59,121 nt of DNA, from positions 1 to 59,121 of the forward strand of contig JACQFP010000039.1 in the NCBI GenBank assembly GCA_016200005.1, read 5' to 3'. The DNA is from Verrucomicrobiota bacterium (lineage in GTDB: Bacteria; Verrucomicrobiota; Verrucomicrobiia; Limisphaerales; PALSA-1396). The stretch's first letter is position 1; every line of letters starts with the position of its first letter. Of the stretch, positions 29,247-45,200 are shown in pieces. A program made the position numbers and the translations under genes. Below the pieces are notes generated by a model. It was not told the DNA's origin. It worked only from the letters and a program-made list of their open reading frames with translations, and searched no databases.

Positions 29247-29472
29247 GCGGCGACAAACTACCGACGGAAACTACCGGCAATCAAGTCGATTCGCCGAAGC
29301 ATGATGGTGACGACGAGAGTTTTGTGTTTGCCAAGCCGGTGTGCCGCCAATACCATCACGCTCATGTTTTCTGAATTGAAGACCGTCACGACCACGACGA
29401 TGTAGCGTTCGTCTCCTAACGAGATGGACGTGAACGCCTCTGACCGACCGTCCGGGGCGTTTTTGTTTACGG

Positions 29473-29508
29473 TTCTAACCGCAGATGAACTCAGATGAAC
29501 GCAGATGA
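29473..29508. repeat. AACCGCAGATGAACTCAGAT repeat, copy 1 (direct)
   Basis: TTCTAACCGCAGATGAACTC followed by AGATGAACGCAGATGA. Internally it is a 10-11 bp unit (GCAGATGAAC / TCAGATGAAC / GCAGATGA). The ATG used by the GxxExxY gene (29495) lies inside it. Confidence 0.85.
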
Positions 29509-29917
29509 TTTTTCCAAACCAGACGCCGGGAAGGCGGAGGCCTATCCGTGCAAAGAAGAGACTCATGCCATCATCGGCTGTGCGTTCGAGGTGTTGAACG
29601 AACTCGGACACGGCCTAAACGAGAAGCTTTATGAGAATTCGCTGGTCGTGGAATTCAAACGTCGCGGCATCGCTTTTGATCAACAGCGCAATTTTGAAGT
29701 GCGTTACAAAGGCGAGCACGTTGGCGAGTTCGTTCCGGATTTGATTGCTTACGGGAAAGTCGTCGTGGATGCCAAGTGCATTGACCGGATTACCGACCAC
29801 GAACGCGGCCAAATGTTGAACTACCTGCGCATTACCAAACTTCCCGTTGGCCTGATTCTGAACTTCAAGCACGCCAAGCTGGAATTTGAAAGGATCGTTC
29901 TTTCTAACCGCAGATGA
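29495..29917 (+). CDS. GxxExxY family protein
   Basis: Soluble protein of 140 residues. The family motif is visible as ELGHGLNEKLYENSLVVEF, preceded by THAIIGCAFEVLNEL. Later conserved parts are FEVRYKGEHVGEFVPDLI, VVDAKCIDRI (the D...E/D-x-K pattern of PD-(D/E)xK nucleases: DLIAYGKVVVDAK), HERGQMLNYLRIT and GLILNFKHAKLEFERIV. The nuclease-like fold is established for the family by motif only; the biological role is unknown. Both ends of the frame are built from the flanking repeat: ATG 29495 is in copy 1, and the terminal residues LSNRR plus the TGA stop are in copy 2. An inverted third copy lies at 30030. Confidence 0.9.
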   Translation: MNADDFSKPDAGKAEAYPCKEETHAIIGCAFEVLNELGHGLNEKLYENSLVVEFKRRGIAFDQQRNFEVRYKGEHVGEFVPDLIAYGKVVVDAKCIDRITDHERGQMLNYLRITKLPVGLILNFKHAKLEFERIVLSNRR

Positions 29918-29936
29918 ACTCAGATGGACGCAGATA
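29902..29936. repeat. AACCGCAGATGAACTCAGAT repeat, copy 2 (direct)
   Basis: TTCTAACCGCAGATGAACTC then AGATGGACGCAGATA, in the same orientation as copy 1, 429 bp away. It encodes the last residues (SNRR) and stop of the GxxExxY gene. Confidence 0.85.
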
Positions 29937-30029
29937 ACAAACAGCAAAACGGAGTTTGGTGCTTTGCCGGATGGAAGCCTGGCAGAATTCAGGTTCTGTC
30001 TTATCACGGCAGCTCCGCCGCCGTAAAAA

Positions 30030-30061
30030 ATCTGCGTTCATCTGCGTCCATCTGCGGTTAA
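30030..30061. repeat. AACCGCAGATGAACTCAGAT repeat, copy 3 (inverted)
   Basis: ATCTGCGTTCATCTGCGTCC then ATCTGCGGTTAA: the same unit in inverse orientation, ending 14 bp before the thrS ATG. It may occupy part of the thrS leader. Confidence 0.85.
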
Positions 30062-30074
30062 ACTTTTGGAATCT

Positions 30075-32141
30075 ATGGAAAACGAACGCAAAACTTTAGA
30101 CGACCGCGCCAAGATGACCGAGCTGGAGCGCATCCGACACTCCTGCGCCCACGTCATGGCCACCGCCATCCTGCGCCTGTGGCCCGACGCGCAATTCGCC
30201 GCCGGGCCGCCGGTGGAAAATGGTTTCTACTACGACGTTGATTTGAAGCACCGCATCTCGCCCGAAGATTTTCCGAAGGTCGAGGAGGAGATGAAGAAGG
30301 AAGTCAAAGCAAACCATCCGTTCGAGAAAATCGTCGTCACGCGCGAACAGGCGATGAAGGACTCGGAGAGCGGACGGCTCGGCGGATTGACCGAGCGACC
30401 GGGCAATCCGAGCAAGTTCAAGATCGGCAACCTGGAAGCCATTCCCGAGGGCGAGCAGATCACTTACTACAAGAACGGCGACTTCATTGACCTGTGCGCC
30501 GGGCCGCACGTGATGCGCACCGGCAACATCGGCGCGTTCAAGCTCACCACCGTGGCCAGCGCCTACTACAAGGGCGACGAGAAGAACCCGCAACTCCAGC
30601 GCATCTACGGCACGGCGTTCAAGAACAAGACCGCGCTCGACGAGTATTTCAAGATGCTCGAAGAGGCCAAGCGCCGCGACCATCGCAAGATCGGCGCGGA
30701 GATGGGGCTGTTCGTGATTGACACCGAGTTTGTCGGGCCGGGACTGCCGCTTTGGTTGCCGAAAGGGACGGCCATCGTGGAGGAACTGGAGAAGCTCGCG
30801 AAGGAAACTGAATTCGCCGCCGGTTATGTGCGCGTGAAGACGCCGCACATCGCGAAAGAAAAAATGTATCTCACCAGCGGGCATCTGCCGGTGCTTTACA
30901 AGGAAAGCATGTTTCCGCCGATGAAGCTCGACGAACTGGCAGAAAAACGACACGAACTTACGAACTCGCTACGTGCGGCTTCCAACATCGTTTATGGTTG
31001 GGCGGCAAGCCAAATTAGTGAGGAAATGGCGAAACATGGTGAGCCCGTGGAGTTGATGGAAAAGGTCATCGCCGAGTACCGGAATTCGAAGTCTCTTCCC
31101 GCAGAAGTATCTCAACAGTTATCCGTATTCGAGTCGGTGAAGCGAGCGCTCCGCGAGCTTTCTCCGCCGGAAACTTACTACCTCAAAGCCATGAACTGCC
31201 CGCATCATCACCGCATTTTTGCGGCTGAGCCGCGCAGCTATCGCGATCTGCCGTTGCGTCTGGCCGAATACGGATGCAATTACCGCTACGAGCAGAGCGG
31301 CGAGTTGTTCGGCCTCATGCGCGTGCGCTCGCTCAACATGAACGACGCGCACATCTATTGCACGCCGGAGCAGTTCGCCGCCGAGTTCAACGCGGTGAAC
31401 GAAATGTATCTGAAGTATTTCAAGATTTTCGGCTTCGAGAAATACGTCATGCGCTTCAGCACGCACGACCCGTCGCGCCTGACCGGCGACAACGCCAAGT
31501 TCGTCAACGAACCGGCGCTGTGGAAGCAGACCGAAGACATGGTCCGCGACACGCTGAAGAATTCGGGCATCCCTTACGTGGAAGTGCCGAACGAGGCGGC
31601 GTTCTACGGCCCGAAGATTGACGTGCAGGTCTGGAGCGTCATCGGCCGCGAATTCACGCTGGCGACCAACCAGGTGGACTTCGCCGTGCCCGCCCGGTTC
31701 GGCCTCACCTACCGCGACAAGGACAACTCAAACAAGACGCCGCTCTGCATCCATCGCGCGCCGCTCGGCACGCACGAACGCTTCATCGGCTTCCTGATTG
31801 AGCATTACGCGGGCAACTTCCCGCTCTGGCTCGCGCCGGATCAGGTGCGCGTCATCACGCTCAACGACGACGAAGCGTTGATCGCCTACGCCAAGCCCAT
31901 CGTGGCCGAACTGCGCGCGAACATGGTGCGCGTGGATGCGGATTTCAGCGCGACGCCGTTCAAGGCGAAGATTGCCAACGCGGAACAATTGCGCGTCCAC
32001 ACGATGCTGGTCATCGGCGGTCGCGACATGGAAGCCGGCGCAGTGAGCGTGCGTCTCCACCACGGCGGTCCGCAAGGCGCGAAGCCGAAGGCGGAAGTCA
32101 TCGCGGATATTCTGGCGAGCATCAAGGAGCGCAGGGCGTAA
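30075..32141 (+). CDS. thrS: Threonyl-tRNA synthetase with in-frame insertion
   Basis: Charges tRNA-Thr. About 688 residues from ATG 30075 (TTG 30066 is also in frame). There is no N-terminal TGS domain; the chain begins at the editing domain (RIRHSCAHVMATAI with the HxxxH metal site; DLCAGPHV). The class II core has MNCPHHH (zinc Cys), motif 2 RYEQSGELFGLMRVRSLNMN, and motif 3 GTHERFIGFLIEHYAG. The anticodon-binding domain ends the protein (QVRVITLNDD..., LVIGGRDMEAG). Oddity: about 78 residues (~287-365, nt ~30937-31170), including LTNSLRAASNIVYGWAASQI, sit between SMFPPMKLDE and YYLKAMNC, where homologues are nearly continuous; this part is less GC-rich than the rest. A 3' fragment of a second copy lies at 33502 and another piece at 38085. 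Confidence 0.94.
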   Translation: MENERKTLDDRAKMTELERIRHSCAHVMATAILRLWPDAQFAAGPPVENGFYYDVDLKHRISPEDFPKVEEEMKKEVKANHPFEKIVVTREQAMKDSESGRLGGLTERPGNPSKFKIGNLEAIPEGEQITYYKNGDFIDLCAGPHVMRTGNIGAFKLTTVASAYYKGDEKNPQLQRIYGTAFKNKTALDEYFKMLEEAKRRDHRKIGAEMGLFVIDTEFVGPGLPLWLPKGTAIVEELEKLAKETEFAAGYVRVKTPHIAKEKMYLTSGHLPVLYKESMFPPMKLDELAEKRHELTNSLRAASNIVYGWAASQISEEMAKHGEPVELMEKVIAEYRNSKSLPAEVSQQLSVFESVKRALRELSPPETYYLKAMNCPHHHRIFAAEPRSYRDLPLRLAEYGCNYRYEQSGELFGLMRVRSLNMNDAHIYCTPEQFAAEFNAVNEMYLKYFKIFGFEKYVMRFSTHDPSRLTGDNAKFVNEPALWKQTEDMVRDTLKNSGIPYVEVPNEAAFYGPKIDVQVWSVIGREFTLATNQVDFAVPARFGLTYRDKDNSNKTPLCIHRAPLGTHERFIGFLIEHYAGNFPLWLAPDQVRVITLNDDEALIAYAKPIVAELRANMVRVDADFSATPFKAKIANAEQLRVHTMLVIGGRDMEAGAVSVRLHHGGPQGAKPKAEVIADILASIKERRA

Positions 32142-32188
32142 AGCAAACGATGTGGAGTGAGGTTTCCCTGACGCGCCTTTGTTGCGGT

Positions 32189-32596
32189 TTAACCTCTGCG
32201 CTGGCGTGAAGGTTTCGTTTCTCGCTTGTCAGAGGGTGAAATCAGTTTCTGCGCGGATTTCTTTTTCGAGGCTTTCGCGTTCGGATTAAATGCCAAGGCA
32301 AGTTTCAGCCAGTCGTCCAACTCGCCATCGGTTGCCAGTCCCGCTGGATTGACAAACACGAAACCGCGCATCGGACGCCCCGTAAAATCCATCGGCACGC
32401 AACCTTTCCTACGTAGCGCGGTGTCATAGACCGCTGGATCAATGCGCGCCATCAGGCGGTTCTTCTCGACGCCTACGCACATCTTCCCGTCCACCATGAA
32501 GCAAAGCCCGCCCATCATGTGCTTTTCCTCAAACCGCACTCGCGACTTGGAGAAACCGCGACGGATGCGCTCCGCCAGTTGTTCATCGTAAGCCAT
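32189..32596 (-). CDS. TfoX N-terminal domain protein
   Basis: Small cytosolic protein of 135 residues. Its core is a TfoX/Sxy N-terminal domain: AERIRRGFSKSRVRFEEKHMMGGLCFMVDGKMCVGV, YDTALRRKGCVPMDFTGRPMRGFVFV and DDWLKLALAF. A Lys/Arg-rich tail follows (KASKKKSAQKL...SRQRRG). In gamma-proteobacteria the two-domain TfoX/Sxy activates competence genes; stand-alone N-terminal-domain proteins like this one have no agreed role. The gene starts 3 bp after the stop of the hxlR-type gene, so the two form an operon read leftward, convergent with thrS. ATG 32596 was chosen for the correct domain start. Confidence 0.87.
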   Translation of the reverse strand: MAYDEQLAERIRRGFSKSRVRFEEKHMMGGLCFMVDGKMCVGVEKNRLMARIDPAVYDTALRRKGCVPMDFTGRPMRGFVFVNPAGLATDGELDDWLKLALAFNPNAKASKKKSAQKLISPSDKRETKPSRQRRG

Positions 32597-32599
32597 AAG

Positions 32600-33019
32600 T
32601 CAGGATTTGGGATTTGGGTTGGTAAAGCGCGCCGCCAATTCACGGATGAAACCATCGCGGTCGGTTCGGATGCGGCGCATAACGGCTGGCGGCGCTGTGG
32701 TTTTGGGGTCGTATTTTGCCGACCACAAACTGATTTCTAAAAGGGCGGGAAGCAAATCCAGTCCCTTTTGAGTCGGAGAGTAAATGAATTGTCGCCGGTT
32801 GCTCTGGTCTCGTGATTTTGCGATCAAACCCTCGGCTTCAAGTCGCGCCAGCCGCTCCGACAGGATGTTGGTGGAAATCCCCTCTTCGGCTGCCAGCAGC
32901 TCGCTGTAGTGCCGTTTGTCTTTGAAAAGCAAATCCCGCAGGAGCAGCAAACTCCACTTGTCGCCAAAAATATCGAGCGCGAATGCAATGGGGCAGTGAG
33001 ATCGCGTTGTCCGTTTCAT
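32600..33019 (-). CDS. HxlR-family transcriptional regulator
   Basis: Winged-helix regulator of 139 residues. The HxlR core is clear: CPIAFALDIFGDKWSLLLL, then RDLLFKDKRHYSELL, GISTNILSERLARLEAEGLI and RRQFIYSPTQKGLDLLPAL. One Cys close to the N-terminus (SHCPIAFAL) sits where redox-sensing family members carry theirs; sensing is inference. The start at 33019 (MKRTTRSHCP) is typical; a longer frame upstream would cover the operator region. It heads an operon with the TfoX-like gene (3-bp gap) and is divergent from the NTF2-like gene at 33143. Two near-identical palindromes lie between the two starts, suggesting autoregulation and control of that gene. Confidence 0.9.
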   Translation of the reverse strand: MKRTTRSHCPIAFALDIFGDKWSLLLLRDLLFKDKRHYSELLAAEEGISTNILSERLARLEAEGLIAKSRDQSNRRQFIYSPTQKGLDLLPALLEISLWSAKYDPKTTAPPAVMRRIRTDRDGFIRELAARFTNPNPKS

Positions 33020-33044
33020 TTCAGCATTTCCATGATTAAAAATC

Positions 33045-33100
33045 GGCTTGCAAAAGGCAAGCCATCCGGCACTTTTATTACGACTTGCAAAAAGCAAGTC
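33045..33100. promoter_or_regulatory. Pair of palindromic operators between hxlR and the NTF2-like gene
   Basis: Site 1, 33045-33063: GGCTTGC, 5 bp, GCAAGCC. Site 2, 33082-33100: GACTTGC, 5 bp, GCAAGTC. Both have 7-bp perfect arms around an A-rich spacer and are 37 bp apart centre to centre, close to 3.5 helical turns. They fill the 123-bp gap between divergent genes and are the likely HxlR binding sites. Confidence 0.75.
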
Positions 33101-33142
33101 ATTCGACACCGCCAACGAAACAATCAACCGGCAAAAAGAAAA

Positions 33143-33508
33143 ATGAAAACCGCGAGTCAAACAGTGAATCACTTCTATGACGTGTGCAACAACAAGCAGG
33201 GTCAGGGCTTGGATGCTCTGGTTGCAGACAACATCACCTTTGAAGGGCCGCTCATGCGCCTTTCGGGTGCGAGTCAATATCTGTCAACGGTCGGCCCGTT
33301 CCTGAAATTCCATAAGAGCATGAGAATGCTCCAGCAGTTTGAAACCGGAGAACACGTCTGCTCGATTTACGAGATGACGCTCGGCACACCAGCGGGCGGA
33401 ACTTTTACTTCGTCGTTCGCCGACTGGATTCGCGTAGTGAATGGAAAAGTGGCAGAGCAAAAGCTTTACTACGACCCGCGCGAGTTCGCGAAAGCCTTCG
33501 GGATGTGA
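33143..33508 (+). CDS. NTF2-like / SnoaL-type small protein
   Basis: Cytosolic protein of 121 residues with the length and pattern of the NTF2-like superfamily: TVNHFYDVCNNKQGQGLDAL, DNITFEGPLM, YLSTVGPFLKFHKSMRM, SIYEMTLGTPAGGTF, FADWIRVVNGKVAEQKLYYDPREF. Such proteins bind or isomerise small hydrophobic ligands; the substrate is unknown. It is divergent from hxlR across the double operator, so it is probably the regulator's main target. ATG 33143 follows an A-rich stretch. Oddity: its last codons and TGA coincide with the first bases of a thrS-like fragment (from ~33502), so the gene's natural end may have been altered by that insertion. Confidence 0.83.
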   Translation: MKTASQTVNHFYDVCNNKQGQGLDALVADNITFEGPLMRLSGASQYLSTVGPFLKFHKSMRMLQQFETGEHVCSIYEMTLGTPAGGTFTSSFADWIRVVNGKVAEQKLYYDPREFAKAFGM

Positions 33509-34136
33509 CGCGCAAGGTGTTGATCGAATCCGGCATCAACTACGTGGAGGTCGCCAACGAGGCGGCGTTCTACGGGCCGAAGATTGACGTGCAGGTGCGG
33601 AGCGCCATCGGCCGCGAATTCACCATCGTCACTAAGTCCGAGCCGGATGGGCGGGGACTTCGCCCTGCCCGCTGGTGTCCGTCCGCAAGGACTTCGGCCT
33701 CACCTACCGCGACCAGGACAATTCCAACAAGACGCCGTTGTGCATCCATCGCGCGCCGCTCGGCACGCATGAGCGGTTCATCGGCTTCCTCATCGAGCAT
33801 TACGCGGGCAACTTCCCGCTCTGGCTCGCGCCGGATCAGGTGCGCGTCATCACGCTCAACGACGACGAAGCGTTGATTAACTACGCCAAGCCCATCGTGG
33901 CCGAACTCCGCGCGAGCATGGTCCGCGTGGATTCGGATTTCAGCGCAACGCCGTTTAAGGCGAAGATTTCCAACGCGGAACAATTGCGCGTTCACACGAT
34001 GCTCGTCATCGGCGGTCGCGACATGGAGGCCGGACAAGTTTCCGTGCGGTTGCACCACGGCGGCCCGCAAGGCACGAAGCCAAAGGCGGAAGTAGTAGCG
34101 GAGATTCTGACCGCCGGGCGGGAGCGACGCGGATAA
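33502..34136 (+). pseudogene. 3' fragment of a second thrS
   Basis: Begins with VLIESGINYVEVANEAAFYG, matching the intact thrS from ~31550, and runs to the same C-terminus (MLVIGGRDMEAGQVSVRLHH). It covers about 190 C-terminal codons. The frame shifts near 33640-33690 (an altered stretch in place of NQVDFAVPARFG), so two frames share it: 33505-33876 and 33675-34136. From ~33800 the DNA is almost identical to 31806-31880 of intact thrS, which means recent duplication or gene conversion. There is no start, editing or motif 2 region, so it cannot make an active synthetase. Confidence 0.88.
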
Positions 34137-34179
34137 TTCCGTTCTCAGTGCCGCTGTCGATGAAGGTTTTTGCTTGCAT

Positions 34180-34209
34180 GAATTCTTGTCCCACCTGGGA
34201 CAATAATTC
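34180..34209. repeat. CACCTG-centred palindrome, copy 1
   Basis: Thirty bp: arms GAATTCTTGTCCCA and TGGGACAATAATTC around CC (one mismatch). It lies 15 bp from the stop of the PaaX-like gene, at the left edge of the TOTE module. Confidence 0.85.
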
Positions 34210-34223
34210 ATCAACCGGCTTTG

Positions 34224-35009
34224 TCAGCCCGACGTGAAGGTTTGCAGTTGCGATCCAGCCTGCCGCAGAACCGCAACTCTCCGCTGCCATGCCGATTGCC
34301 CCAGGTAACCGGATGGCCAAAGTCGTTCCGGCAGCAGCGGATCATCCGTCACCGCGTCCAGCCAGGCATCGCGTTCAACCGTCGCCCAGCGCAGCAATGC
34401 CTTCGCTGCTGCTTCACTCCGCAACGCCCCGTCTGGCTGTTCGTCCAAGATTTTTATCAATCGAAGATAACGCCGGTTGATGCGCTCGAAGTCCCAAGCG
34501 CCGGTGACGATTTCCGCGTCGGATTCGCAGGCGCAGGGTCGCGCGTCGAGCAGGAGTAACGATTCTACGTCAATCTTTGCGCCGACGAGAATTTGGCGTT
34601 CCTCCTCCAACGGATCAGGTGTGACCCAGACGCTACCTTGAAGGCATCCGAAACCTCGGTCGTGCAAGTAACGTCGCAACCGCTTGCGATGGCTGTCGCG
34701 AGCGACTGGAACATCAAACAACACCAAGCGCCATCGCCCGTCCCATTCACGCGACCACCGAACCTGCGGGTCGCGCCCGCCCAACGCATGGAGGCGTCCT
34801 TGGGCGGTGAGGCGATAAATGCGCTCATCCGAACTGCCTGCCTGGGCTTCGATCAATTCCCCTTTCTTCAAAACTGAAAGCTGCTGTTGCAGTCCATTTC
34901 GATAGGCCCAGCTTTCGTAAGAATCGGTGAAGTTGCGAAAGGTCGGCCGCATCAGCTTGTCTGCGGACCAGAGCAAAAAATTCAGGAGTTCTTCCGTCTT
35001 GGATTTCAT
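34224..35009 (-). CDS. PaaX-like transcriptional regulator
   Basis: About 261 residues. N-terminal winged helix (KTEELLNFLLWSADKLMRP..., LQQQLSVLKKGELIEAQ, RIYRLTAQGRLHALGG), a central ferredoxin-like domain (WDGRWRLVLFDVPVARDSHR, LRRYLHDRGFGCLQGSVWV), and a C-terminal helical domain (WDFERINRRYLRLIKIL; LLPERLWPSGYLGQSAWQRR). This is the PaaX layout; its central domain shares the Cas2 fold. PaaX represses catabolic operons in response to CoA thioesters, but no such operon is here. The gene is divergent from the TOTE gene (117 bp between starts), with a 30-bp palindrome in the gap, so it is likely the module's regulator. ATG 35009 starts the winged helix; the longer frame would read through the palindrome. 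Confidence 0.8.
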   Translation of the reverse strand: MKSKTEELLNFLLWSADKLMRPTFRNFTDSYESWAYRNGLQQQLSVLKKGELIEAQAGSSDERIYRLTAQGRLHALGGRDPQVRWSREWDGRWRLVLFDVPVARDSHRKRLRRYLHDRGFGCLQGSVWVTPDPLEEERQILVGAKIDVESLLLLDARPCACESDAEIVTGAWDFERINRRYLRLIKILDEQPDGALRSEAAAKALLRWATVERDAWLDAVTDDPLLPERLWPSGYLGQSAWQRRVAVLRQAGSQLQTFTSG

Positions 35010-35048
35010 GGGCGTCAGTTTGCAGGAAACCGGCAACGAAAGCCATAC

Positions 35049-35078
35049 GGATTTCTGTCCCAGGTGGGACAAGAATCC
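35049..35078. promoter_or_regulatory. CAGGTG-centred palindrome, copy 2, in the paaX-like/TOTE divergent promoter
   Basis: Arms GGATTTCTGTCCCA and TGGGACAAGAATCC around GG (two mismatches). It lies 40-70 bp from both divergent starts, a normal operator position. Confidence 0.75.
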
Positions 35079-35125
35079 ATCGCTAGCATGGGCGGCGGCA
35101 CTCGACGGCCTTTCGGGTTTTGGCT

Positions 35126-37981
35126 ATGGTGCGGTGCGTGGTCACGAACACTTCTCCATCCGCCGCGAAGATTGAATTGTTCAGGTCGCTGTTTCGCGGA
35201 AGATCGGATGTTTATCCACGCCGGTTCGAGAGCCGCAAGACCGGGAAGGCCGGCTACGCGCCGGCTTGTGCCAATGAATGGGTGAGGGGCGTGTGTGAGA
35301 AACCACGAATCAAGTGCGCCGATTGCCCGAACCGGCGCTTCCTGCCGGTCACCGATGATGTGATTCGCTGGCATCTTTCTGGCCACGATGATCAGGGCCG
35401 CATTTTTGTCATGGGTGTGTATCCGATGCTCCAGGATGAAACTTGTTTTCTCCTGGCGGCGGATTTCGACCGGGAAAGCTGGCAGGAGGATGCCGGCGCG
35501 TTCCGCGAAACCTGTCACCGGCTCGAACTGCCGGCGGCCTTGGAACGCTCGCGCTCGGGGAACGGCGGGCATGTCTGGCTTTTCTTTGAGGAAGCCCTCT
35601 CCGCCAGCCTCGCGCGTAAATTGGGTTCGCACATCCTCACCGAGACAATGGAGAATCGTCCCGAGATCGGCCTCGGCTCCTATGATCGGATCTTCCCCAA
35701 TCAGGACACATTGCCCAAAGGCGGGTTTGGGAATTTGATCGCACTGCCTTTGCAAAAGCTCGCGCGGCAACGGGCCAACGCCGTCTTCCTGGACGCCCAA
35801 TTCCAGCCGCATCCCGATCAGTGGTCCTTCCTGGCGTCCGTGCGGAAAATCAGCCGCGCAAGGGTCGAGGCGGTGGTGCGCGATGCGGAATCGCGCGGGC
35901 GGATCATCGGGGTGCGCGTGGCAGCGGCTGACGGGGACGACAATGCTCCGTGGACCACGCCACCGTCGCGTCGCCAAAAAGCGCCGCCCATCATCGGGCC
36001 GTTGCCGGAGAGCGTCGAACTGGTCCTCGCGGATCAAATCTATGTTGGCAAGGAGAACCTTCCTCCGGGACTTCGCAATCGGCTGCTCCGGCTCGCGGCC
36101 TTTCAAAATCCAGAGTTCTATCGCGCCCAATCCATGCGTTTGCCGACCTACGACAAGCCGAGAATCATCCATTGCGCCGAAGATTACCCCAAGCATTACG
36201 GCCTGCCGCGCGGTTGCCTCGAGGGTGTGCAGCAACTGGTTCACACACTGAAAATCAAATCTGTTGTCCGCGATGAACGCTGCGACCGCACCCCTCTGGA
36301 CGGGTCCTTCCACGGTGCGTTGCGCCCCGAACAGGAGGCGGCTGCCAAGGCGATGCTGGCGCACGATACCGGCGTCCTGGCCGCCACGACGGCTTTCGGC
36401 AAAACCGTGCTCGCGGCCTGGCTCATTGCTCAACGTGGCGTGAACACTCTGATTTTGGTTCACCGCCAGCAACTCCTGGAGCAGTGGATCGAGCGCTTGT
36501 CCACGTTCCTGGGCGTGCCGACAAAAACGATTGGACGGCTCGGCGGCGGGCGGAAAAAACTCACGGGCAGCCTGGACGTGGCGCTGCTGCAAAGCCTCGT
36601 CCGCAAAGGCGCCGTGGACAACCGGGTCGCGACTTACGGCCATCTGGTGGTGGATGAATGTCCTCATCTGTCCGCCCGCAGCTTTGAACTGGTTGCGCGG
36701 CGGGCCAAGGCGAAGTTCATCACCGGCCTGTCGGCCACCGTCACCCGCAAAGACGGGCATCACCCGATCATCTTCATGCAGTGCGGGCCGGTGCGCTATC
36801 GGGTGGATGCGAAAAGGCAGGCGGCAGCGCGGCCCTTCACTCATCAAGTGTTCGTTCGCCCGACTGGATTCCGTTCGATGGAAACGCCCGCGCCAGATCA
36901 GCGCGTGGAATTTCATCGGCTGTATGAGGCATTGTGGAATGACGAGCGGCGGAACGCATTGATCTGTGCCGATGTGTTGAGAGCGGTGCGTGAAGGTCGC
37001 TCGCCCTTGTTGCTCACGGAACGGACGGAACATTTGCAGCACCTGGCGGAACGACTGTCGTCCGACATTCCAAACGTGATTATGTTGCAAGGCGGGATGG
37101 GGAGGAAAGAACTACAAGCTGCTCTTGACCGAGTGGCAACGAATCCTTGTCCCAGGTGGGACAAGGATTCGTCAGCACAGGCAATGGGTGGAACCGTCGG
37201 TCGGGTGATTCTGGCCACGGGAGGATTCATTGGCGAAGGGTTCAACGACCCGCGTCTCGACACATTGTTCCTCGCGCTGCCGGTTTCGTGGCGGGGAACA
37301 ATCGCCCAGTATGTAGGTCGGCTCCATCGCCTCCACGAAGGCAAACGCGAAGTGCGGGTCTATGATTACGCGGACTTGGACGTTCCCATGCTGGCGCGGA
37401 TGTTCGACCGGCGCTGCCGCGGTTACGAGGCGCTCGGTTACACGATTCTGTTGCCCGCCAGCGCCGTGCCGGGATGGCCGGTTACCGTACCGCTGCCGAT
37501 TGATCCGGAATGGAAACGGGATTACTCCGCCAGTGTTCGCCGGCTCATTCGCGATGGCGTGGAGGCACCGCTGGCGAATCTGTTCGTCCATGCCGCGCGT
37601 TCCCTGTCCCTGGAGGCCGAAGGGGCCGGCCGCGCCCGAAGCGCCAGCGAAGCATTCTTGTATCGGCGGCTGCAGACGCTGCCCGAAACAGCCGGCCGTT
37701 TCCGCCTGAATGAGAACCTGCCGATTTCCTTTGATGGGAGTGGCGGGATGGAGGTGGACCTCTTATGTGCGGAGGTCCGCCTGGTGATCGAACTGGACGG
37801 CGTGCAACATCTGTCCGACGCCGAAGCTTATCGGCGCGACCGGCGAAAGGATGCGCTGCTGCAACAGAACGGATACTTCGTCTTGCGCTTCCTGGCGGAG
37901 GACGCGAGCAAACAACTCGATCACGTATTGGACACAATCCTCGCCGCGCTGGTCCATCGGCAGAAGGATGAGAGATGCTGA
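35126..37981 (+). CDS. TOTE conflict-system protein: AEP primase + SF2 helicase + DUF559 nuclease
   Basis: About 951 residues joining all three core TOTE activities in one chain. Residues ~10-350 are an archaeo-eukaryotic primase domain (ELFRSLFRGRSDVYPRRFES; four-Cys zinc site CEKPRIKCADCP with upstream Cys; catalytic Asp113-x-Asp115 in LAADFDRESW; His149 in GNGGHVWLFF). Residues ~400-750 are a superfamily 2 helicase: Walker A Lys426 (TTAFGKT), DEAD-like box Asp510-Glu511 (VVDECPH), motif III GLSATV, motif VI QYVGRLHR. Residues ~840-940 are a DUF559/PD-(D/E)xK nuclease: Asp878, Glu889 and Asp891 (MEVDLL...VIELDGVQH). TOTE systems are thought to attack invading DNA; evidence for that is mainly comparative genomics. 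A palindrome adds ~10 residues (NPCPRWDKDS) between helicase motifs. ATG 35126 follows an in-frame TTG at 35120. Confidence 0.9.
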   Translation: MVRCVVTNTSPSAAKIELFRSLFRGRSDVYPRRFESRKTGKAGYAPACANEWVRGVCEKPRIKCADCPNRRFLPVTDDVIRWHLSGHDDQGRIFVMGVYPMLQDETCFLLAADFDRESWQEDAGAFRETCHRLELPAALERSRSGNGGHVWLFFEEALSASLARKLGSHILTETMENRPEIGLGSYDRIFPNQDTLPKGGFGNLIALPLQKLARQRANAVFLDAQFQPHPDQWSFLASVRKISRARVEAVVRDAESRGRIIGVRVAAADGDDNAPWTTPPSRRQKAPPIIGPLPESVELVLADQIYVGKENLPPGLRNRLLRLAAFQNPEFYRAQSMRLPTYDKPRIIHCAEDYPKHYGLPRGCLEGVQQLVHTLKIKSVVRDERCDRTPLDGSFHGALRPEQEAAAKAMLAHDTGVLAATTAFGKTVLAAWLIAQRGVNTLILVHRQQLLEQWIERLSTFLGVPTKTIGRLGGGRKKLTGSLDVALLQSLVRKGAVDNRVATYGHLVVDECPHLSARSFELVARRAKAKFITGLSATVTRKDGHHPIIFMQCGPVRYRVDAKRQAAARPFTHQVFVRPTGFRSMETPAPDQRVEFHRLYEALWNDERRNALICADVLRAVREGRSPLLLTERTEHLQHLAERLSSDIPNVIMLQGGMGRKELQAALDRVATNPCPRWDKDSSAQAMGGTVGRVILATGGFIGEGFNDPRLDTLFLALPVSWRGTIAQYVGRLHRLHEGKREVRVYDYADLDVPMLARMFDRRCRGYEALGYTILLPASAVPGWPVTVPLPIDPEWKRDYSASVRRLIRDGVEAPLANLFVHAARSLSLEAEGAGRARSASEAFLYRRLQTLPETAGRFRLNENLPISFDGSGGMEVDLLCAEVRLVIELDGVQHLSDAEAYRRDRRKDALLQQNGYFVLRFLAEDASKQLDHVLDTILAALVHRQKDERC
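37141..37170. repeat. CAGGTG-centred palindrome, copy 3, translated in the TOTE gene
   Basis: Perfect 30-bp palindrome: arms GAATCCTTGTCCCA and TGGGACAAGGATTC around GG. It encodes NPCPRWDKDS at ~673-682 and keeps the reading frame. Confidence 0.9.
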
Positions 37982-38039
37982 GGTTCCCGGCACACCAAGG
38001 GCCGACGACAAACCACCCGTTCTGCGCGAAAATCATTGT

Positions 38040-38073
38040 GCAAACTTTTGCTTCAGGTGAAGTAAAAGTTTGC
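38040..38073. repeat. CAGGTG-centred long hairpin after the TOTE gene (copy 4, divergent arms)
   Basis: Arms GCAAACTTTTGCTTC and GAAGTAAAAGTTTGC (15 bp with one G-T mismatch) around AGGT, starting 59 bp after the TOTE stop. The centre CTTCAGGTGAAG shares CAGGTG with the TTGTCCCA palindromes but the arms differ. It has no T-run, so it is not a standard terminator. Confidence 0.7.
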
Positions 38074-38084
38074 ATCACGATGAA

Positions 38085-38202
38085 GAGACGTGTCTGAAGT
38101 GTTTGTACGTATTTGGCTTCGAGAAATACGTGATGTGCTTCAGCACCCACGGCCAAGAGAGGTTGGGCATGACATTCGTCAATGAACCGGAGTTGTGGTT
38201 GG
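38085..38202 (+). pseudogene. Internal fragment of a thrS
   Basis: Translates as CLKCLYVFGFEKYVMCFSTH then MTFVNEPELW, matching YLKYFKIFGFEKYVMRFSTH and KFVNEPALW of the intact thrS (nt ~31405-31525). Only about 40 codons remain. In the protein it belongs just before the piece at 33502, but on the chromosome it lies after it, on the far side of the TOTE module. Confidence 0.8.
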
Positions 38203-38260
38203 CGCTGCGAAGCCAGGTGGACGTTACTGATGCTTCAGCCGTACCAGCTTTTGAAGATGC

Positions 38261-39694
38261 TCAAGGCATGGGTTGCACAGGGAATCGCGACGGGTCCAAC
38301 GCTGGCCGGACGCCGAAAGGCGCAGCGTTCACCGAGCCGAGCGCCAGGCGACCGGCGCGGATTTGCAGACAGGCGAAGCCTTGCGGATGTGGCGCGTAAA
38401 GGTCGCCGTGCGCGGCCAACGTTTCACGCTGCCATTCCTCCGGCCACAGGCTCAGACCGCGATAGTAATGATGCCCGTTGCGCTCGACGTGTTCGATGCC
38501 GAGCAGTGACATCATGGCCAGGTCCTGCAACAAAGTGACTGGTCCGAGCGTGCACAAATCTTCACCCGTGAGCACCACGCGTTCGCCGCGTCGCCGCCGA
38601 TGCTCCAGCAAGCAGGCGTTGGCGACACCCTTCACGATGCCCTTGCAACTCTTGTAGCTCGTCCCGACGTAACCCAACCCGAGCGCCCGCGGCACGTCGC
38701 CGAGCGCACCTTCGGATTAGTCAATGATGAGCGGCGGACGGTCGCCCCAAGCACGCAACGTCGCGCCCGCCTCGTCGCTCAACGCGTGGTCGCGATGCAC
38801 GGGTTGTTCCACGACGAGGATGTGCCGCCACAGCTCCCGGAGACTCATGTCCGTGGAGGCCGATTGCCAGAACTCGCGGAACGCTGCGAAGCTCTTGACA
38901 TTTTCATTGCCGTCGAGCGTGACAAAACAATTTCCGCCGGTTTCGCGTTCCAACACACGGCTCAAGTCGCGCAGTCTGGGAAAATTCCGTTGGGCATCGC
39001 CGAAGATTTTGACTTTGAAGTAACGCAAGCCGTAGGCGCGAATTGAACTCTCCACGTCCTGTGGCAGGCCGTCCTCCACGCGCTCGTTTGCCGGAATGTC
39101 CGCCGGCGTGAGCGCGTCGCCCAAGCCGACGGTGTGCCGCACGAAGCAAGCATCCAGCGGCGTCGCGTGAAGCAAATCGCGCGGTTGGGCGTCGTCCAGT
39201 TCGGCGTAGATTTCTCCCAGACGCAACCCGAGCCGGTTGGTCGCGATGAGGCGATGCAACGGTTGATCTGCCAGCCGGCACAACCCATCCAGCACCGCAC
39301 GTTCAACCAGGCTCACGCCGAGATTCGCCAGCAGTGGCGCGAGCGAACGGGAACTGGCCCATTCACTTTGCTGCCGATGCAACTCGCGCCAGAAGTCGAA
39401 AAACGTCATCGGCGATTGCGCGATTTGCTCCGCGAGTTGCGCCGCGTGGCTGATGACTTCGAGCATTTCGGGCAAATCTTGCTCGAAGGTCGTGGCCGGA
39501 TTTTTCGTGAACCACTTTGGCGGGAGGCCCTCGCTGGTGAGGCCGAACAAGGATTTGCTGCTAACCGTGACTCGCGTGCGGACGAAAAGGTGCGGCACCT
39601 CGGTCATGCTTGCGATACCATAGCGAAACGGGAATCGCGTCCGCGTGTGCCGGACGAAGAATTCAAAGGGAGAAATCGTAAATCGATAGTTCAT
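38261..39694 (-). pseudogene. Enolase-superfamily (mandelate racemase/MLE-like) gene with a nonsense codon
   Basis: From ATG 39694 the frame runs MNYRFTISPFEFFVRHTRTR... to PPLIID and a TAA at 38717-38719, then continues in the same frame as SEGALGDVPRALGLGYVGTS to 38261. Apart from that codon the chain of ~477 residues is continuous. Enolase-superfamily features are present: the KxK acid/base motif (YFKVKIF), metal ligands in VTLDGNENV and VVEQPVH, and the third at IID followed by the stop, where family members have DE(S/A). GAA to TAA would explain it. The loss would remove the last metal ligand and the barrel end. The last residues before 38261 (FPVQPMP) border the thrS scrap and may be altered. 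The original substrate is unknown, probably an acid sugar or dipeptide. Confidence 0.82.
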
Positions 39695-39716
39695 CGGAGA
39701 AGATGGCCATAAAACT

Positions 39717-40061
39717 TCATTTCACAAATTCCCATTGTGAACCTGACTTGGGATCTTTTGCAGAAATCCGCTCTCCATTCCAATGATAATCAAGTGCAGG
39801 ATACCCATACATTAGTTCAGCGGAACGCGATACGATAATAACGACACGCCCGTCCGACCAAAGGGCATATGGGAATACCAGGCCAGCACCACGGCTATCT
39901 CTGGCGTCGATCCCTTTGATATGAAGCTGTAAATGATCACCAGAAATGTGAATGAAGTTGGAAGTTCCTTTTTCAAGGTAAGTGCCTGAAGGAATACGCT
40001 GCTCCACTGTTGTGCACCCGGTTAGGGCCACCAAAAGCGCAAACAGCAGGAAGCTTTTCAT
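39717..40061 (-). CDS. Small lipoprotein of unknown function
   Basis: Protein of 114 residues with a clear lipoprotein signal (MKSFLLFALLVALTGCTTVE; lipobox Cys16). The mature part is a small beta-rich domain (SGTYLEKGTSNFIHISGDHL, YALWSDGRVVIIVSR, YHWNGERISAKDP) with no recognised family. Its ATG overlaps the stop of the MetE-like gene by 4 bp (ATGA), so the two are co-translated, MetE-like first. A 22-bp gap separates it from the broken enolase-family gene on the same strand. It may simply be carried in that operon; no role can be read. Confidence 0.75.
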   Translation of the reverse strand: MKSFLLFALLVALTGCTTVEQRIPSGTYLEKGTSNFIHISGDHLQLHIKGIDARDSRGAGLVFPYALWSDGRVVIIVSRSAELMYGYPALDYHWNGERISAKDPKSGSQWEFVK

Positions 40062-41074
40062 TTCCGTCCCAAATACAAATCGCGACCTTTGACCAGCGCG
40101 GCGATTTTGCGGTCGGCTACGGAGCGTTTGAGCATCCAGAAGCCGCAGTCCGGATGCACGTAGCGCACGCGATTCGGCCCGAGAATTTTCTCCGCGCGCT
40201 CGATGGCACGGGCGACTTCCTCCGGCGTTTCAATGCGGTTAACCTTGACATCCACGACACCGAGTCCCAGCCCGATGCGCGCGTCCACGGCCTTGAGCGC
40301 GTCGAGGTCCTCGGGCGGACGGTGGGCGAGTTCGAGCACGAGGTGGTCGGTACGAAGGCTGTTGAGGAACGCGGTCAGCGCGGCCCACGTGCCTTTTTGA
40401 ATCGTCTGCCCGCCGTAGTTGCCAAAGCAAAAGTGCACCGCCTTTTCCCCGCGCACGGCGTCCAGCACGCGATTGATCGCGGTCGCGGCGAGCGGCGCGT
40501 CGGCGGGATTGCCGGGAATGTTGGCCTCGTCCACTTGCACGCAAGCGCAACTCAACTCGCCGGTTTGCGCGGCCAGGGCGTCGGCGATGGCGAGCGTGAG
40601 CTTCTCCAAATCCTGATAGTGCTCGTCCAGCAACGTGCGCGCGAGCATGTAGGGGCTGGTGAGCGTGAACTTGAACGGCCCGCCTGCCACGCTCGCGGCG
40701 CGCGCGCAGTCTTCCGGCAAGTTCAAGGCGCCTTCAGTGATCGGACCAGTGACAACACCAGCCGGTTTGCCGCGAAAGCGCATCTCCGGTTTCGCGCGAA
40801 AAGCATTGGTCTCACGCCGGCCAACGTCGCAACGGATGCCGCCCAACCGACTGACAAAATAATCAATCATCCCGTTCGTGTCGGGGTGGTTGACATCGAA
40901 GCGATACAATTCGCCGTCGGTGGGCAGGTCAATGCCGGCCTGACGTTGCAAGTCGAAGACCACGCGCGTGGCGTCGAGCACCGCTTGTTCGCTGGGCAGA
41001 GCCGCGAGCCATTCGGGCACAGGATACGAACCGACCGTGCTGGTGAGGATGCGGGTCGTAGTGCTCGTGTTCAC
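40058..41074 (-). CDS. MetE C-terminal-like (cobalamin-independent methyltransferase fold) protein
   Basis: About 338 residues with the UROD/MetE-like TIM barrel found in the C-terminal half of MetE and in stand-alone methyltransferases. Motifs: TSTVGSYPVPEWL (start of the barrel), GIDLPTDGELYRFDV, TGPITEGAL, ACVQVDEANIPG, KAVHFCFGNYGG (His and Cys ligands), and VHPDCGFWMLKRS (second zinc Cys). The zinc set H-C...C is therefore kept, pointing to thiol methyl or alkyl transfer, as in methionine or coenzyme-M-type reactions. The full MetE lies at 53287, so this is a paralogue of different specificity. The GTG start at 41074 is inferred from the barrel start; a longer in-frame extension to 41227 is not like the family. 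Operon partner of the lipoprotein at 39717. Confidence 0.85.
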   Translation of the reverse strand: MNTSTTTRILTSTVGSYPVPEWLAALPSEQAVLDATRVVFDLQRQAGIDLPTDGELYRFDVNHPDTNGMIDYFVSRLGGIRCDVGRRETNAFRAKPEMRFRGKPAGVVTGPITEGALNLPEDCARAASVAGGPFKFTLTSPYMLARTLLDEHYQDLEKLTLAIADALAAQTGELSCACVQVDEANIPGNPADAPLAATAINRVLDAVRGEKAVHFCFGNYGGQTIQKGTWAALTAFLNSLRTDHLVLELAHRPPEDLDALKAVDARIGLGLGVVDVKVNRIETPEEVARAIERAEKILGPNRVRYVHPDCGFWMLKRSVADRKIAALVKGRDLYLGRK

Positions 41075-41399
41075 AGATCGAGAATAGCAGCAAGTCGTCA
41101 GGGAGCAAGTTCGCTTGGCACGGACGAACGATTGATAGTCGGCAACGAACTCCGCGCGCAAACAGTTCAAGGGCCAGCCGACTTCCGCACAAAAGGGATC
41201 GATCCGCAGATCGCGGTTCATTTCCACGGCAAACGCGCCTAAGAGCGAATCCGAAAAGGAGTGTTGTCATGGATATTTTGCTGGCGATTGAGGAATGAAG
41301 CACCTAAATATGCAGCCCTTGAACCGAAGCGTGGAGCGGCGCAGTGCTGCGGATTGATATTCCGTGCCTGCCTCACAACCCACCGCAAAGGAAACCAAG
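41075..41399. other. Divergent intergenic region
   Basis: About 325 bp between the MetE-like gene (leftward) and the nucleotidyltransferase gene (rightward). It contains a ribosome site (AAGGAG) before a nine-codon frame at ~41270 (MDILLAIEE) but no supported gene. Promoters for both neighbours are expected here; I could not pick them out. Confidence 0.4.
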
Positions 41400-42245
41400 A
41401 TGGAAATAAAGAAAGCGGTCATCACCGCCGCCGGACAAAATCAACGCTCGCTGCCGCTCCAAACTCTGGTGGATCGTGACGGGCAGACGAAATCCGCGCT
41501 GGCCATCATCGTGGAAGAATCCGTCCAGGCGGGCATCGACGACATTTGTGTGGTCATCAACCCTGGCGACCAGAATTCCTACCGCGCCGCCGCCGGGGCG
41601 CACGGCAAACGATTGGCATTCGTGGAGCAGACCCGCCCATTGGGCTATGGCCACGCCGTTTGGTGCGCGCGCGAGTTCACTGGCGCAGCGCCCTTCCTGC
41701 TGCTGGTCGGAGATCACCTTTACATCAGCCGGAGCACGAAGCGTTGCGCGCAGCAACTGGTCGAAACCGCCGCTGGAGAAGCCTGCACGGTCTCGGCGGT
41801 GCAGGCCACGCACGAAAGCAAGCTCCCGCATTACGGCACGGTGGGCGGCCGGCTGGCCGATGCCCGCCAGGGAATTTATCTAGTGTCGGACGTGGTGGAG
41901 AAGCCCACACCCACAGAAGCCGAACAGAGGCTGATCGTGCCCGGTTTGCGCGCCGGCCACTACCTCTGCTTCTTCGGCATGCACGTCCTCACACCGCGGG
42001 TCATGTCGCTGCTTGAGGGGGATGTTGCCAAGGCGGGCGAAAAAGGCAGGGTGCAACTGAGCGCCGCGCTCGCGCGACTCGCAGAGAATGAACGCTACCT
42101 GGCCTGTGAGTTGGACGGTCGGCGCTTTGACATTGGCGTCAAATACGGTCTGCTCACCGCGCAACTGGCGCTCGCGCTCAGCGGCGAAGACCGCGATGAA
42201 GTTCTTGCCGGTCTGGTGGAGTTGCTAGCGCTCAGTGCCAAGTGA
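41400..42245 (+). CDS. Sugar-1-phosphate nucleotidyltransferase (GalU-like)
   Basis: Cytosolic enzyme of 281 residues with a nucleotidyltransferase Rossmann-type fold. The N-terminus ([20 protein letters not shown]) is a variant of the AAGxGTRxxP nucleotide-binding loop, missing the usual GxGTR glycine pattern, with a Lys later (GQTKSAL). Other GalU features are present: [45 protein letters not shown] (the metal-binding Asp), [10 protein letters not shown] and [19 protein letters not shown]. It should make a UDP- or other NDP-sugar; the altered loop makes the exact reaction uncertain. ATG 41400 lies about 10 bp after a purine run (AAAGGAAA). The next gene starts 13 bp downstream and is a fused kinase/uridylyltransferase, so the pair likely acts in one sugar-activation route. 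Confidence 0.82.
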
Positions 42246-42258
42246 TGATTCATTGCTC

Positions 42259-45200
42259 ATGGCCAACACGCTGATTGAGATCATCACCTCGACCGACCCA
42301 GCGATTCGGAACCGCTCACTCGATTCCGTATGTCGCGACGCGTCGGCTGAACAACTCCTGGCGGCTTGCGCCGAACTCGACAACTTCCGCCGACACAGTG
42401 ACAACCTGTACGAGCGCGTTCGGGCTTTGTTTTTTTTGTATGCGACTCACCGATTTCATTTGCCGGCCCGGTCCGGCATTGGCCAGCGCGGCTTGATTCC
42501 TTTTTCGGGTTTCGAGCACTTGTTGCATCGCCGGTTCGCCGAAGCGATTGACCACTTTCTCACCGCGCAAAGCACCCAAGGCCCAAGCCAGGCCATCTCC
42601 AGCGCCCTGGCAGCGGCGTATCAACGGCTCGCCTTCCAGACGCTCGCCGATCAGGTGCGTCGCAGTGTCCGCTCCGTTCGTGGCAACCAGTGGATGTTCC
42701 GCATGGGCCATCCGACGGATCATCCTCTGCGCATCCGTCCTGAGTTGCTACTGCGCGACGCCGACGGTAGCTACCCGATTTTGCGGGAGCGCACACCGGT
42801 GCGGATGGACCTCAGCCACAGTGGTTGGAGCGACATTTTCTTTCTGGGCATGGATTTCCCGGAGGGCGCGCGTGTGCTTAACGTGTCCATCGATCTTGGC
42901 GTGCATGGCCGGGACGCTTCACCGCGGCCGCCCATCGAAGTGTTTTTGCGTGTCATCGGCGAACCGGTCTTGCGGCTGACCAGCGTCGATCTTGGCGCCA
43001 GCGCGGACATCAACAACCTCACGGAGGTCTTCGATTTTGCGCGTGATTACCTCGGCCTGCTCAAGGCGGCCGTCATCGCCGCGGGCATTGTGCCGCCCGG
43101 CATCGAAGGTTCGGGACAGAAACTCGCGGATCTGCTGGCGCGCGTCGTCGGGACGGGCCGCGGGTTGGAAATTGTTTCCAACGTCAACAGCATCCCCAAA
43201 GGTTCGCGGCTGGCCGTTTCCACGAATCTGTTGGCCTCGCTGATTTCAGTCTGCATGCGCGCAACGGGTCAGGCGAAATCGTTGGACGGCACGTTGCAAG
43301 AGGACGAACGCCGGCTGGTGATGGCGCGCGCGTTGCTCGGTGAATGGCTCGGCGGTTCCGGTGGTGGCTGGCAGGATTCCGGCGGCGTGTGGCCGGGCAT
43401 AAAACTCATTTGTGGCGTGCTGGCAGGCGAGGATGATCCGGAATTTGGCATCAGCCGGGGCCGCTTGATGCCAACACATCGCATTTTCGATCAGCACGAT
43501 GCCTCACCGGAAACCCGGCGCCGGCTGCAGGAGAGTCTCGTTCTGGTTCACGGCGGCATGGCCCAAAACGTCGGGCCAATCCTCGAGATGGTCACGGAAA
43601 AATATCTCCTCCGCTCCGATGCCGAGTGGCAGGGCCGCCTGCAGGCCATGGGCATTTTGGATGACCTCCTGGAGGCGTTGCGAGCCGGTGATGTGCCACG
43701 GGTCGGAGCGCTGGTGACGCGCAATTTCCATGAACCAATCCAAACCATCATTCCTTGGGCAAGCAACTTTTTCACGGAGACGCTTATCCGGCGCGTGCGC
43801 GAGGAGTTCGGAAAAGATTTCTGGGGCTTCTGGATGCTTGGAGGCATGGCTGGCGGCGGCATGGGTTTTATTTTTGAACCGGCACACAAGGCGCGCGCAC
43901 AGGAGCGCCTGCTGATCATCATGTCGGAGACCAAGCGCGAACTGCAACACGCCCTGCCGTTCGCAATGGAGCCGGTCGTTTATGATTTTGCCATCAATGA
44001 ACGCGGCACCTGGGCCGATCTGCTCTCCGGGCCGGAGGCATTGCTGCCCGCCGCGTATTACTCGATCCACGTTCCTCATTGGTTGCGGGCCGAGCCGCAG
44101 ACGTTGCCGGCTGAACGCCGTGTGGAAATGGGCAGGTTCAGCACCGCCTGCCACACTCGACCCGAATTGGGTGGCATGATGTCCACGCTGTTTGACCGCC
44201 TGCTGCCCCAACCTAAGACGGAGGCTGGCCGGCAACAAAGCCTTGCCGAATTGCTCGAACAAAATGGCTTCGACCGCGCTCAACATGATCAAATTAGCGA
44301 CGACCTCAAAGCGGGCCGCATCGGACTGGCGCAAAACCGTCTCCCCCCCAGCACCGACATCCGTGACGTGGGCGATGGCGATGTGTTGAGCGTGATTGAT
44401 GGACGCGCCGAGCAGTATCGCGAGGCTGGTCTCGCGGCGCTGGCACGCGGTGAGTTGGGCATCGTCACGCTGGCCGCCGGTGTGGGCAGCCGATGGACGC
44501 AAGGTGCCGGCGTGGTGAAAGCGCTGCATCCCTTCTGCCGACTGGGCGGCGAGCACCGGACATTCATCGAAACGCATCTGGCCAAGAGCCGGCGCATGGG
44601 CAGAATGGTGGACCACCCGTTGCCGCACATCGTCACCACCAGTTACCTGACGCATCAGGCCACCGCCGATTATCTTGCGAAGCAAGGCAACTATGGTTAT
44701 CCCGGCCCGCTGTTGCTGTCGCCTGGCCGCTCCATCGGTTTGCGGATGGTGCCGATGGTTCGCGACCTGCGTTTTCTCTGGGAGGAAATGCCGCAGCAAA
44801 TGCTCGATGAACAGCAGCAAAAGGTCCACGACAGCCTCCACGCCGCGCTGCTTGGCTGGGCACGCTCGGCCGGCGAGGGCAACGACTACACCGACAACCT
44901 TCCCGCCCAATGCCTGCATCCGGTCGGCCACTGGTTTGAATTTCCCAACCTGCTCCGCAACGGCGTGCTCGCGCGTCTGTTGACCGAACGGCCCCAATTG
45001 AAGCATCTGATGATGCACAACATTGACACGCTCGGCACCGACGCCGATCCGGCAGTCTTCGGTCAGCACATGGCGGAAGGCGGTGGCCTCACGTTTGAAG
45101 TCATCGCGCGGCGACTGGAGGACCGCGGCGGCGGGTTGGCCTGCGTCAACGGCCAGGTGCGGCTCGTCGAGGGTCTGGCTATGCCGCGGGAGGAAGTTGA

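Follow-up and report, generated by a model that had tools for sequence, protein, structure and literature searches.

A PaaX-family gene bracketed by dispersed palindromes in a verrucomicrobial genome, and a Cas2-like-domain residue that tracks the palindrome core

A PaaX-like gene in a Verrucomicrobiota bacterium is bracketed by two copies of a palindrome that is also dispersed through the genome, and across related loci a single residue in the Cas2-like domain of the encoded protein goes with the two core bases of the palindrome. We consider that gene and palindromes probably constitute a REP/RAYT-like unit in which a PaaX-family protein takes the place of the Y1 transposase. The adjacent gene for a TOTE-type primase-helicase-nuclease is a neighbor of this unit and has received one copy of the palindrome in its reading frame.

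Results

The PaaX-like and TOTE genes and their palindromes

The window analyzed here is the whole stretch of 59,121 nucleotides, in which the following features are pertinent.

30066–32141, plus strand: intact thrS (profile search)
33529–34133, plus strand: 3′ portion of a second thrS, with stop codons in each of the three frames (sequence comparison)
34178–34211: palindrome, downstream bracket of the PaaX-like gene, core GTCCCA..TGGGAC, just past the PaaX stop codon (core-copy search)
34224–35009, minus strand: PaaX-like protein, 261 amino acids, residue 109 Lys, likely ATG at 35009 (PaaX_M profile, predicted structure)
35049–35078: palindrome, upstream bracket, centered ~54 bp before the PaaX ATG and also upstream of the TOTE gene (core-copy search)
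35126–37981, plus strand: TOTE protein, AEP primase, SF2 helicase, and DUF559 nuclease, 951 amino acids from ATG (Pfam domains, motif positions)
37139–37172: third palindrome copy, in frame within the TOTE gene (14-amino-acid insert absent from the three nearest homologues)
38039–38074: member of a related palindrome subfamily with core GCTTCA, just past the TOTE stop codon (not among the 43 model matches described below)
38078–38154, plus strand: internal fragment of the second thrS (sequence comparison)

The two fragments of the second thrS lie on either side of the PaaX–TOTE module and are not arranged collinearly with thrS. A GxxExxY (PD-(D/E)XK-like) protein is encoded at 29495–29917.

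The initial annotation of this DNA, made from the letters alone, had described a TOTE primase with three domains in one chain, and profile searches bear this out. By its match to Pfam PF22548 the 951-amino-acid protein is a clear AEP-TOTE family member, the N-terminus being assigned to that family with an E-value of 1.2e-97 (326.5 bits versus a cut-off of 27), and ResIII (E 3.1e-15) and DUF559 (E 2.7e-13) also score above their cut-offs. The residues proposed to be catalytic (D113/D115, H149, K426, D510-E511, D878, E889, and D891) are each found where they had been placed. The single-chain layout had been thought noteworthy but proved to be common, because 29 of the 30 best TOTE loci carry an open frame of 933–1068 amino acids (3 of those with one internal stop). 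Matches of lower-ranked homologues are often limited to residues 8–780, without the DUF559 part, and homologues are present in 61 of 245 genomes of the order. The TOTE protein of the window is an ordinary single-chain member that differs from other TOTE systems only in its palindrome-encoded insert of 14 residues. TOTE systems are thought to act against invading DNA; our search of the open-licence PMC literature on TOTE found nothing relevant.

The gene divergent from TOTE had been called PaaX-like with a Cas2-like central domain, and both parts of that assignment held up. The protein matches PaaX_M (E 7.2e-18, 64.9 bits versus a cut-off of 24), and comprises a winged-helix region, the Cas2-like central domain, and a PaaX_C-like tail whose score (20 bits) is slightly below the cut-off of 22. 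The profile for the paa-operon PaaX equivalog, the phenylacetyl-CoA repressor, gave 61.6 bits, far under its cut-off of 264.55, and Pfam gave no Y1_Tnp match in the protein, so that the Y1/HUH transposase of a REPtron is not found here. The predicted structure is of moderate quality (pLDDT 79, pTM 0.41). Its best solved relatives by sequence and Foldseek E-value are E. coli PaaX (PDB 8a39), with which it shares fold family and domain order, and Rv0674 (3kfw), followed by the PaaX-like regulator 3l09 and then by Cas2 chains; whole-chain superposition on the solved PaaX relatives is weak (TM 0.27 and 0.31). No PaaX relative was confirmed in viral contigs and none was found in phage records. Eight plasmid records hold distant relatives, six of which were fetched as controls.

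The palindrome reads TTGTCCCA(GG)TGGGACAA, and its three copies in the window all fall in the PaaX–TOTE module. No further copy with three or fewer mismatches is present in the window, and none of 100 shuffled sequences gave as many matches. Rfam yielded no match above curated cut-offs in positions 29000–42500. The operator-like palindrome that had been noted between the two genes is real (35049–35078), but it is one of the pair that brackets the PaaX-like gene and not an operator of TOTE.

Palindromes bracket PaaX-like genes in this genome and in related loci

Elsewhere in the 6.54 Mb assembly there is one more zero-mismatch copy (C79:19045). A search allowing two mismatches revealed two other PaaX genes that are likewise bracketed, by palindromes of their own subfamilies ~860 bp apart, and brackets also surround the fourth, so that four of four strong PaaX genes here have them. 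A fifth PaaX_M match was not taken as PaaX because it is weak (E 9e-4). Recognizable remnants of PaaX genes beside palindromes are limited to two places, C63 and the region upstream of the C45 unit. Several of the PaaX palindrome cores resemble variants of parS, and one site (G000 C77:521, TTGTTCCACGTGGAACAA) is parS-like.

A scan of a genome contig collection by PaaX protein alignment alone gave 48 loci, of which two (L147 and L148, with matches of 43 and 23 residues) were dropped before the bracket counts. By title, nearly all of the 46 usable loci come from Verrucomicrobia or its subgroups, with one from Kiritimatiellae. Of the testable loci, 28 of 44 had a strong palindrome upstream, 29 of 44 had one downstream, 18 of 42 had them on both sides, and 36 of 42 on at least one; among 9,170 random intervals matched in length and drawn from these loci, the corresponding numbers were 36 (upstream), 23 (downstream), and 0 (both). 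By a looser dyad score (≥24), the counts among the 46 loci were 35 upstream, 33 downstream, 24 on both sides, and 44 on at least one, versus 11 of 1,571 random windows. Seven loci of canonical PaaX, one in E. coli K-12 and six on actinobacterial plasmids, stayed below even the looser score on both sides. Under the strict test, ten strong PaaX loci of relatives comprised three with both brackets, three with one, and four with none; one of the one-sided loci has a different palindrome, of 58 bp, and another is cut by a contig end. A divergent PaaX relative (31% identity; L050/L232 of genome G053) has a one-sided 58-bp palindrome of other sequence.

The two brackets of a gene resemble each other, with a core difference of 2.2 versus 6.8 when shuffled (37 loci scored on both sides), and none of 2,000 shuffles gave a value as low. 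In 34 of the 41 loci scored, the start codon follows the center of the upstream palindrome by 51–57 bp. A spacing fixed near −54 bp suits autoregulation, which is described for E. coli PaaX in the available excerpt of a review (PMC9493321), and it therefore favors an alternative in which the protein is a self-repressing PaaX-family regulator with two looping operators and a genome-wide operator regulon, nothing being mobile. Several of the PaaX units are syntenic orthologues, and thus the PaaX gene does not hop freely.

A residue of the Cas2-like domain goes with the palindrome core

Residue 109 is flanked by two arginines (R-X-R) in helix 1 of the Cas2-like domain. In Cas1–Cas2, the Cas2 residues at the corresponding place touch DNA. 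The initial annotation had singled out this domain for its Cas2 fold, a hunch that proved fruitful: the domain contains the residue that tracks the palindrome core. Among 41 proteins with a readable palindrome, residue 109 goes with the core dinucleotide: Glu with TG in 13 of 15, Ala with CG in 5 of 6, Val with TC in 5 of 7, Lys with CC in 4 of 4, Thr with CG in 2 of 3, and Leu with TC in 2 of 2, while Asn, Ile, Gln, and His occur once each. Five proteins fall short of these tallies, three because of unread bases (C56, with Val, is part-read) and two as true exceptions or reversals (L110 and L143). Glu 109 occurs with CG at L110, L145, and one bracket of L105.

The association was also assessed by prediction of held-out cores. 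The alignment holds 42 proteins, 41 with a readable palindrome, and the removal of four with unread core bases and two near-duplicates left 35. With training proteins less than 65% identical to the one predicted, residue 109 was correct in 29 of 31 predictable cases and ranked first of 261 columns; the runner-up, residue 102, which is part of the same loop, was correct in 18 of 31, and a majority guess in 3 of 35. A crude test of changes between sister pairs did not single out residue 109, because two other columns scored 15 of 17 and residue 109 scored 13.

Thirteen loci of the scan lie outside the alignment: L130, L135, and L137 are affected by faulty frames or stops, L118 equals L075, and the remainder were omitted as a precaution. 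Six of the seven readable ones fit the same pairing (L107, L120, L125, L131, L137, and L140, several of which are close kin of proteins in the alignment), and L145 does not. L105 is mixed, its downstream bracket fitting residue 109 and its upstream bracket not; L130 is ambiguous, L129 has no palindrome, and L135 and L146 gave no residue.

Lys 109 together with CC appears at three places in the tree. One of these is L106, whose syntenic sister L102 differs from it by Ala instead of Lys together with CG instead of CC in both brackets. This concerted difference suggests that selection or conversion keeps gene and palindromes matched. In another genome (G055), the PaaX protein has Thr 109 and the solo palindromes, those away from PaaX genes, carry CG. 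Shared coding cannot explain the covariation, because none of the palindromes in this comparison overlaps the PaaX coding sequence. Covariation of this kind indicates recognition, which a regulator with operators would equally require, and that alternative also gains from the L102/L106 pair, in which the bracket is kept and switched in concert.

Dispersed copies in gene ends and reading frames

A covariance model located at least 43 distinct sites in the genome, eight of them PaaX brackets; this number is a lower bound because 150 of 1,710 candidates were scored, with a model built on the window's own genome. Thirty-six of the 43 sites have a symmetric core (TG 15, CG 14, CC 4, and CT 3). The TG, CG, and CC cores match the proteins of the genome that have E109, A109, and K109, respectively; CT was attributed to the V109 unit, which itself has mixed brackets. 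Of the remaining seven sites, two have TT cores, two are the mixed V109-unit brackets, and three are further mixed sites.

Solo copies lie in convergent gaps (15), in co-directional gaps (13), in divergent gaps (2), within called genes (4), and at an edge (1), as placed by a home-made gene caller that in the window shortened TOTE and missed PaaX. Convergent gaps are over-represented, with 15 of 30 intergenic solos versus 19% of intergenic length (p 1e-4), or 10 of 25 when clusters are collapsed (p 0.011). The shortage in divergent gaps is not significant (2 of 30 versus 16%, p 0.12), a result that is compatible with an operator regulon.

Copies also sit in frame within genes. The insert in TOTE occupies a linker at which three other loci (L075, L076, and L077) have 33-nt inserts, and the tree favors, with moderate support, at least two separate insertions of palindromes there. 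ObgE has 33–46 extra residues relative to eight relatives, and the insert contains a palindrome; it sits in a linker whose length varies among the relatives too (149–162 residues there, 195 here). NuoF has ~22 extra residues, again containing a palindrome, relative to the one relative compared. The same NuoF protein (L180 3541–6174) also has a longer insert, unrelated in sequence (NEEHPTSNIQHSTP...). C6 and C78, the latter in obgE, have in common a 111-bp element around the palindrome that is 95% identical at these distant sites.

An operator regulon accounts well for the upstream bracket but not for the solo copies, because these favor convergent gaps, lie within the TOTE, obgE, and nuoF frames, and include the 111-bp element common to two distant sites. 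For these reasons we regard the purely regulatory alternative as doubtful, and return to a REP-like unit as the reading that we prefer.

Solo copies have an extra flanking repeat that PaaX brackets lack, and another agent could therefore move them. A RAYT or other Y1 transposase of the host was considered as that agent and rejected, because the genome's four Y1_Tnp genes have no such palindrome within ~1.5 kb (one contig ends sooner). No exact empty site with a target duplication was obtained from same-genus contigs, the matching ones of which did not span a site; at obg, the match in the same-genus genome covers residues 1–98 only. A candidate palindrome pair without PaaX (L217, genome G042) was rejected, being two solo copies 770 bp apart in a larger repeat of ~100 bp. 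At two loci (L030 ~7131–7386 and L039 ~6609–6864), three palindromes lie exactly 108 bp apart with alternating core types, an arrangement that is REPIN- or BIME-like.

Co-occurrence of PaaX and palindromes across genomes

In 58 genomes of the order, PaaX_M matches (E ≤1e-10, a cut-off chosen after the gap in E-values was seen) occur in eight and palindrome matches in 11. Both are present in six genomes, PaaX only in two, palindromes only in five, and neither in 45 (Fisher p 2.7e-4, in a table that includes the genome on which the palindrome model was built). One genome of the palindrome-only kind, G037 (L187 and L221–L230; 96% complete), has 63 palindrome matches, counted on both strands, and no PaaX was found in it. 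The one same-genus genome searched (82% complete) gave neither a PaaX nor a palindrome match.

PaaX is unlikely to be a dedicated partner of TOTE

According to the initial annotation, the window holds a TOTE defense module with a dedicated PaaX regulator, an idea that was to stand or fall with the adjacency of the two genes in related genomes. A neighbor search found PaaX within ~1.5 kb of TOTE in just 2 of 30 loci, the window and L075 (some contigs end sooner). In the reverse view, TOTE turned up in 1 of the 48 named PaaX loci, L118, the sequence of which is identical to L075. L112 has a thrS end and PaaX with no TOTE within the 6 kb examined, its thrS end being 97% identical over 34 residues. 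Because of these three findings, non-adjacency is largely what the related genomes show. The association does recur, since L118 (genome G110) has the full thrS-PaaX-TOTE order with cognate palindromes as in the window, and palindromes entered the same TOTE linker in four loci, probably in at least two separate events. It is nevertheless the exception, and we judge a dedicated regulator of TOTE to be very unlikely. That PaaX serves TOTE specifically is a tempting reading that is mostly wrong and is corrected here.

Discussion

We propose a unit bracketed by palindromes, in which the PaaX-like gene supplies the protein. A dimer of the PaaX-like protein would bind palindromes of 36–40 bp, with its winged helices probably reading the outer arms, by analogy with E. 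coli PaaX, and its Cas2-like domain reading the core. Such a unit would keep one cognate palindrome ~54 bp upstream of its start codon and another just past its stop codon, while copies of the same subfamily would be dispersed in REP-like fashion, most of them at the ends of genes and some within genes in frame. The unit would be a neighbor of TOTE and not part of it, one copy having gone into the TOTE gene; repression of TOTE by PaaX from the palindrome upstream of it is conceivable, as is autoregulation of the PaaX gene from the same site. The protein may move the palindromes or may only bind them. More tentatively, it is possible that the Cas2-like domain, with a one-residue code (E: TG; A or T: CG; K: CC; V or L: TC), not only recognizes the dispersed palindromes but also itself mobilizes or maintains them.

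That the palindromes are instead REPs moved by an unrelated host transposase, lying beside PaaX by chance or tolerance, is scarcely credible, because even though 5 of 58 genomes have palindromes without a strong PaaX match and solo copies have extra common flanks, this account is at odds with the single-residue code, with the four Y1_Tnp genes of the genome being free of palindromes, and with the both-side brackets of near-fixed upstream spacing in many lineages versus none in 9,170 random intervals, statistics that already speak against chance placement.

The closest known systems are the REPtrons, RAYT genes related to the Y1 transposases of IS200/IS605 together with their REPs. RAYTs are vertically inherited. 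As portrayed in excerpts of one article (PMC3733652), a REPtron likewise has a single gene with palindromes on its flanks, and these palindromes recur across the genome as solo and clustered copies, mostly between convergent or co-directional genes and some inside genes. The unit described here differs in that its protein belongs to the PaaX family and not to Y1/HUH, its palindromes are near-perfect dyads, and its copies number in the tens. The GTAG/CGTC foot tag of REPs has no constant counterpart that we noticed on viewing the 40-mers by eye. REPs of the CGTC type are reported without a dedicated transposase in the same excerpts (PMC3733652). In-frame insertion in coding genes is shared with the Rickettsia palindromic elements as outlined in part of another article (PMC10969869), the difference being that here a gene for a cognate and probable binding protein is present.

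Among transcription factors, the excerpt of the review cited above gives the E. coli PaaX operator as TGATTC-N27-GAATCA (PMC9493321), a dyad of 39 bp and so of a length similar to the palindromes here, and states that the structure of a PaaX–operator complex had yet to be elucidated. The seven canonical PaaX loci tested have no bracket, and the family described here differs further in having a Cas2-like-domain residue that goes with the core bases. In the open-licence PMC literature, judged by title, we found nothing on PaaX with palindromic repeats, transposition, Cas2, or Verrucomicrobia.

On this proposal, REP-like palindromes that lack an adjacent tyrosine transposase would have a protein dedicated to them, and the link between an amino acid of a Cas2-like domain and the core bases is a code that can be tested directly. 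If the proposal is true, it would define a class of REP systems that operates without a tyrosine transposase, and a Cas2-fold domain that acts as a sequence-specific reader of palindromes outside CRISPR.
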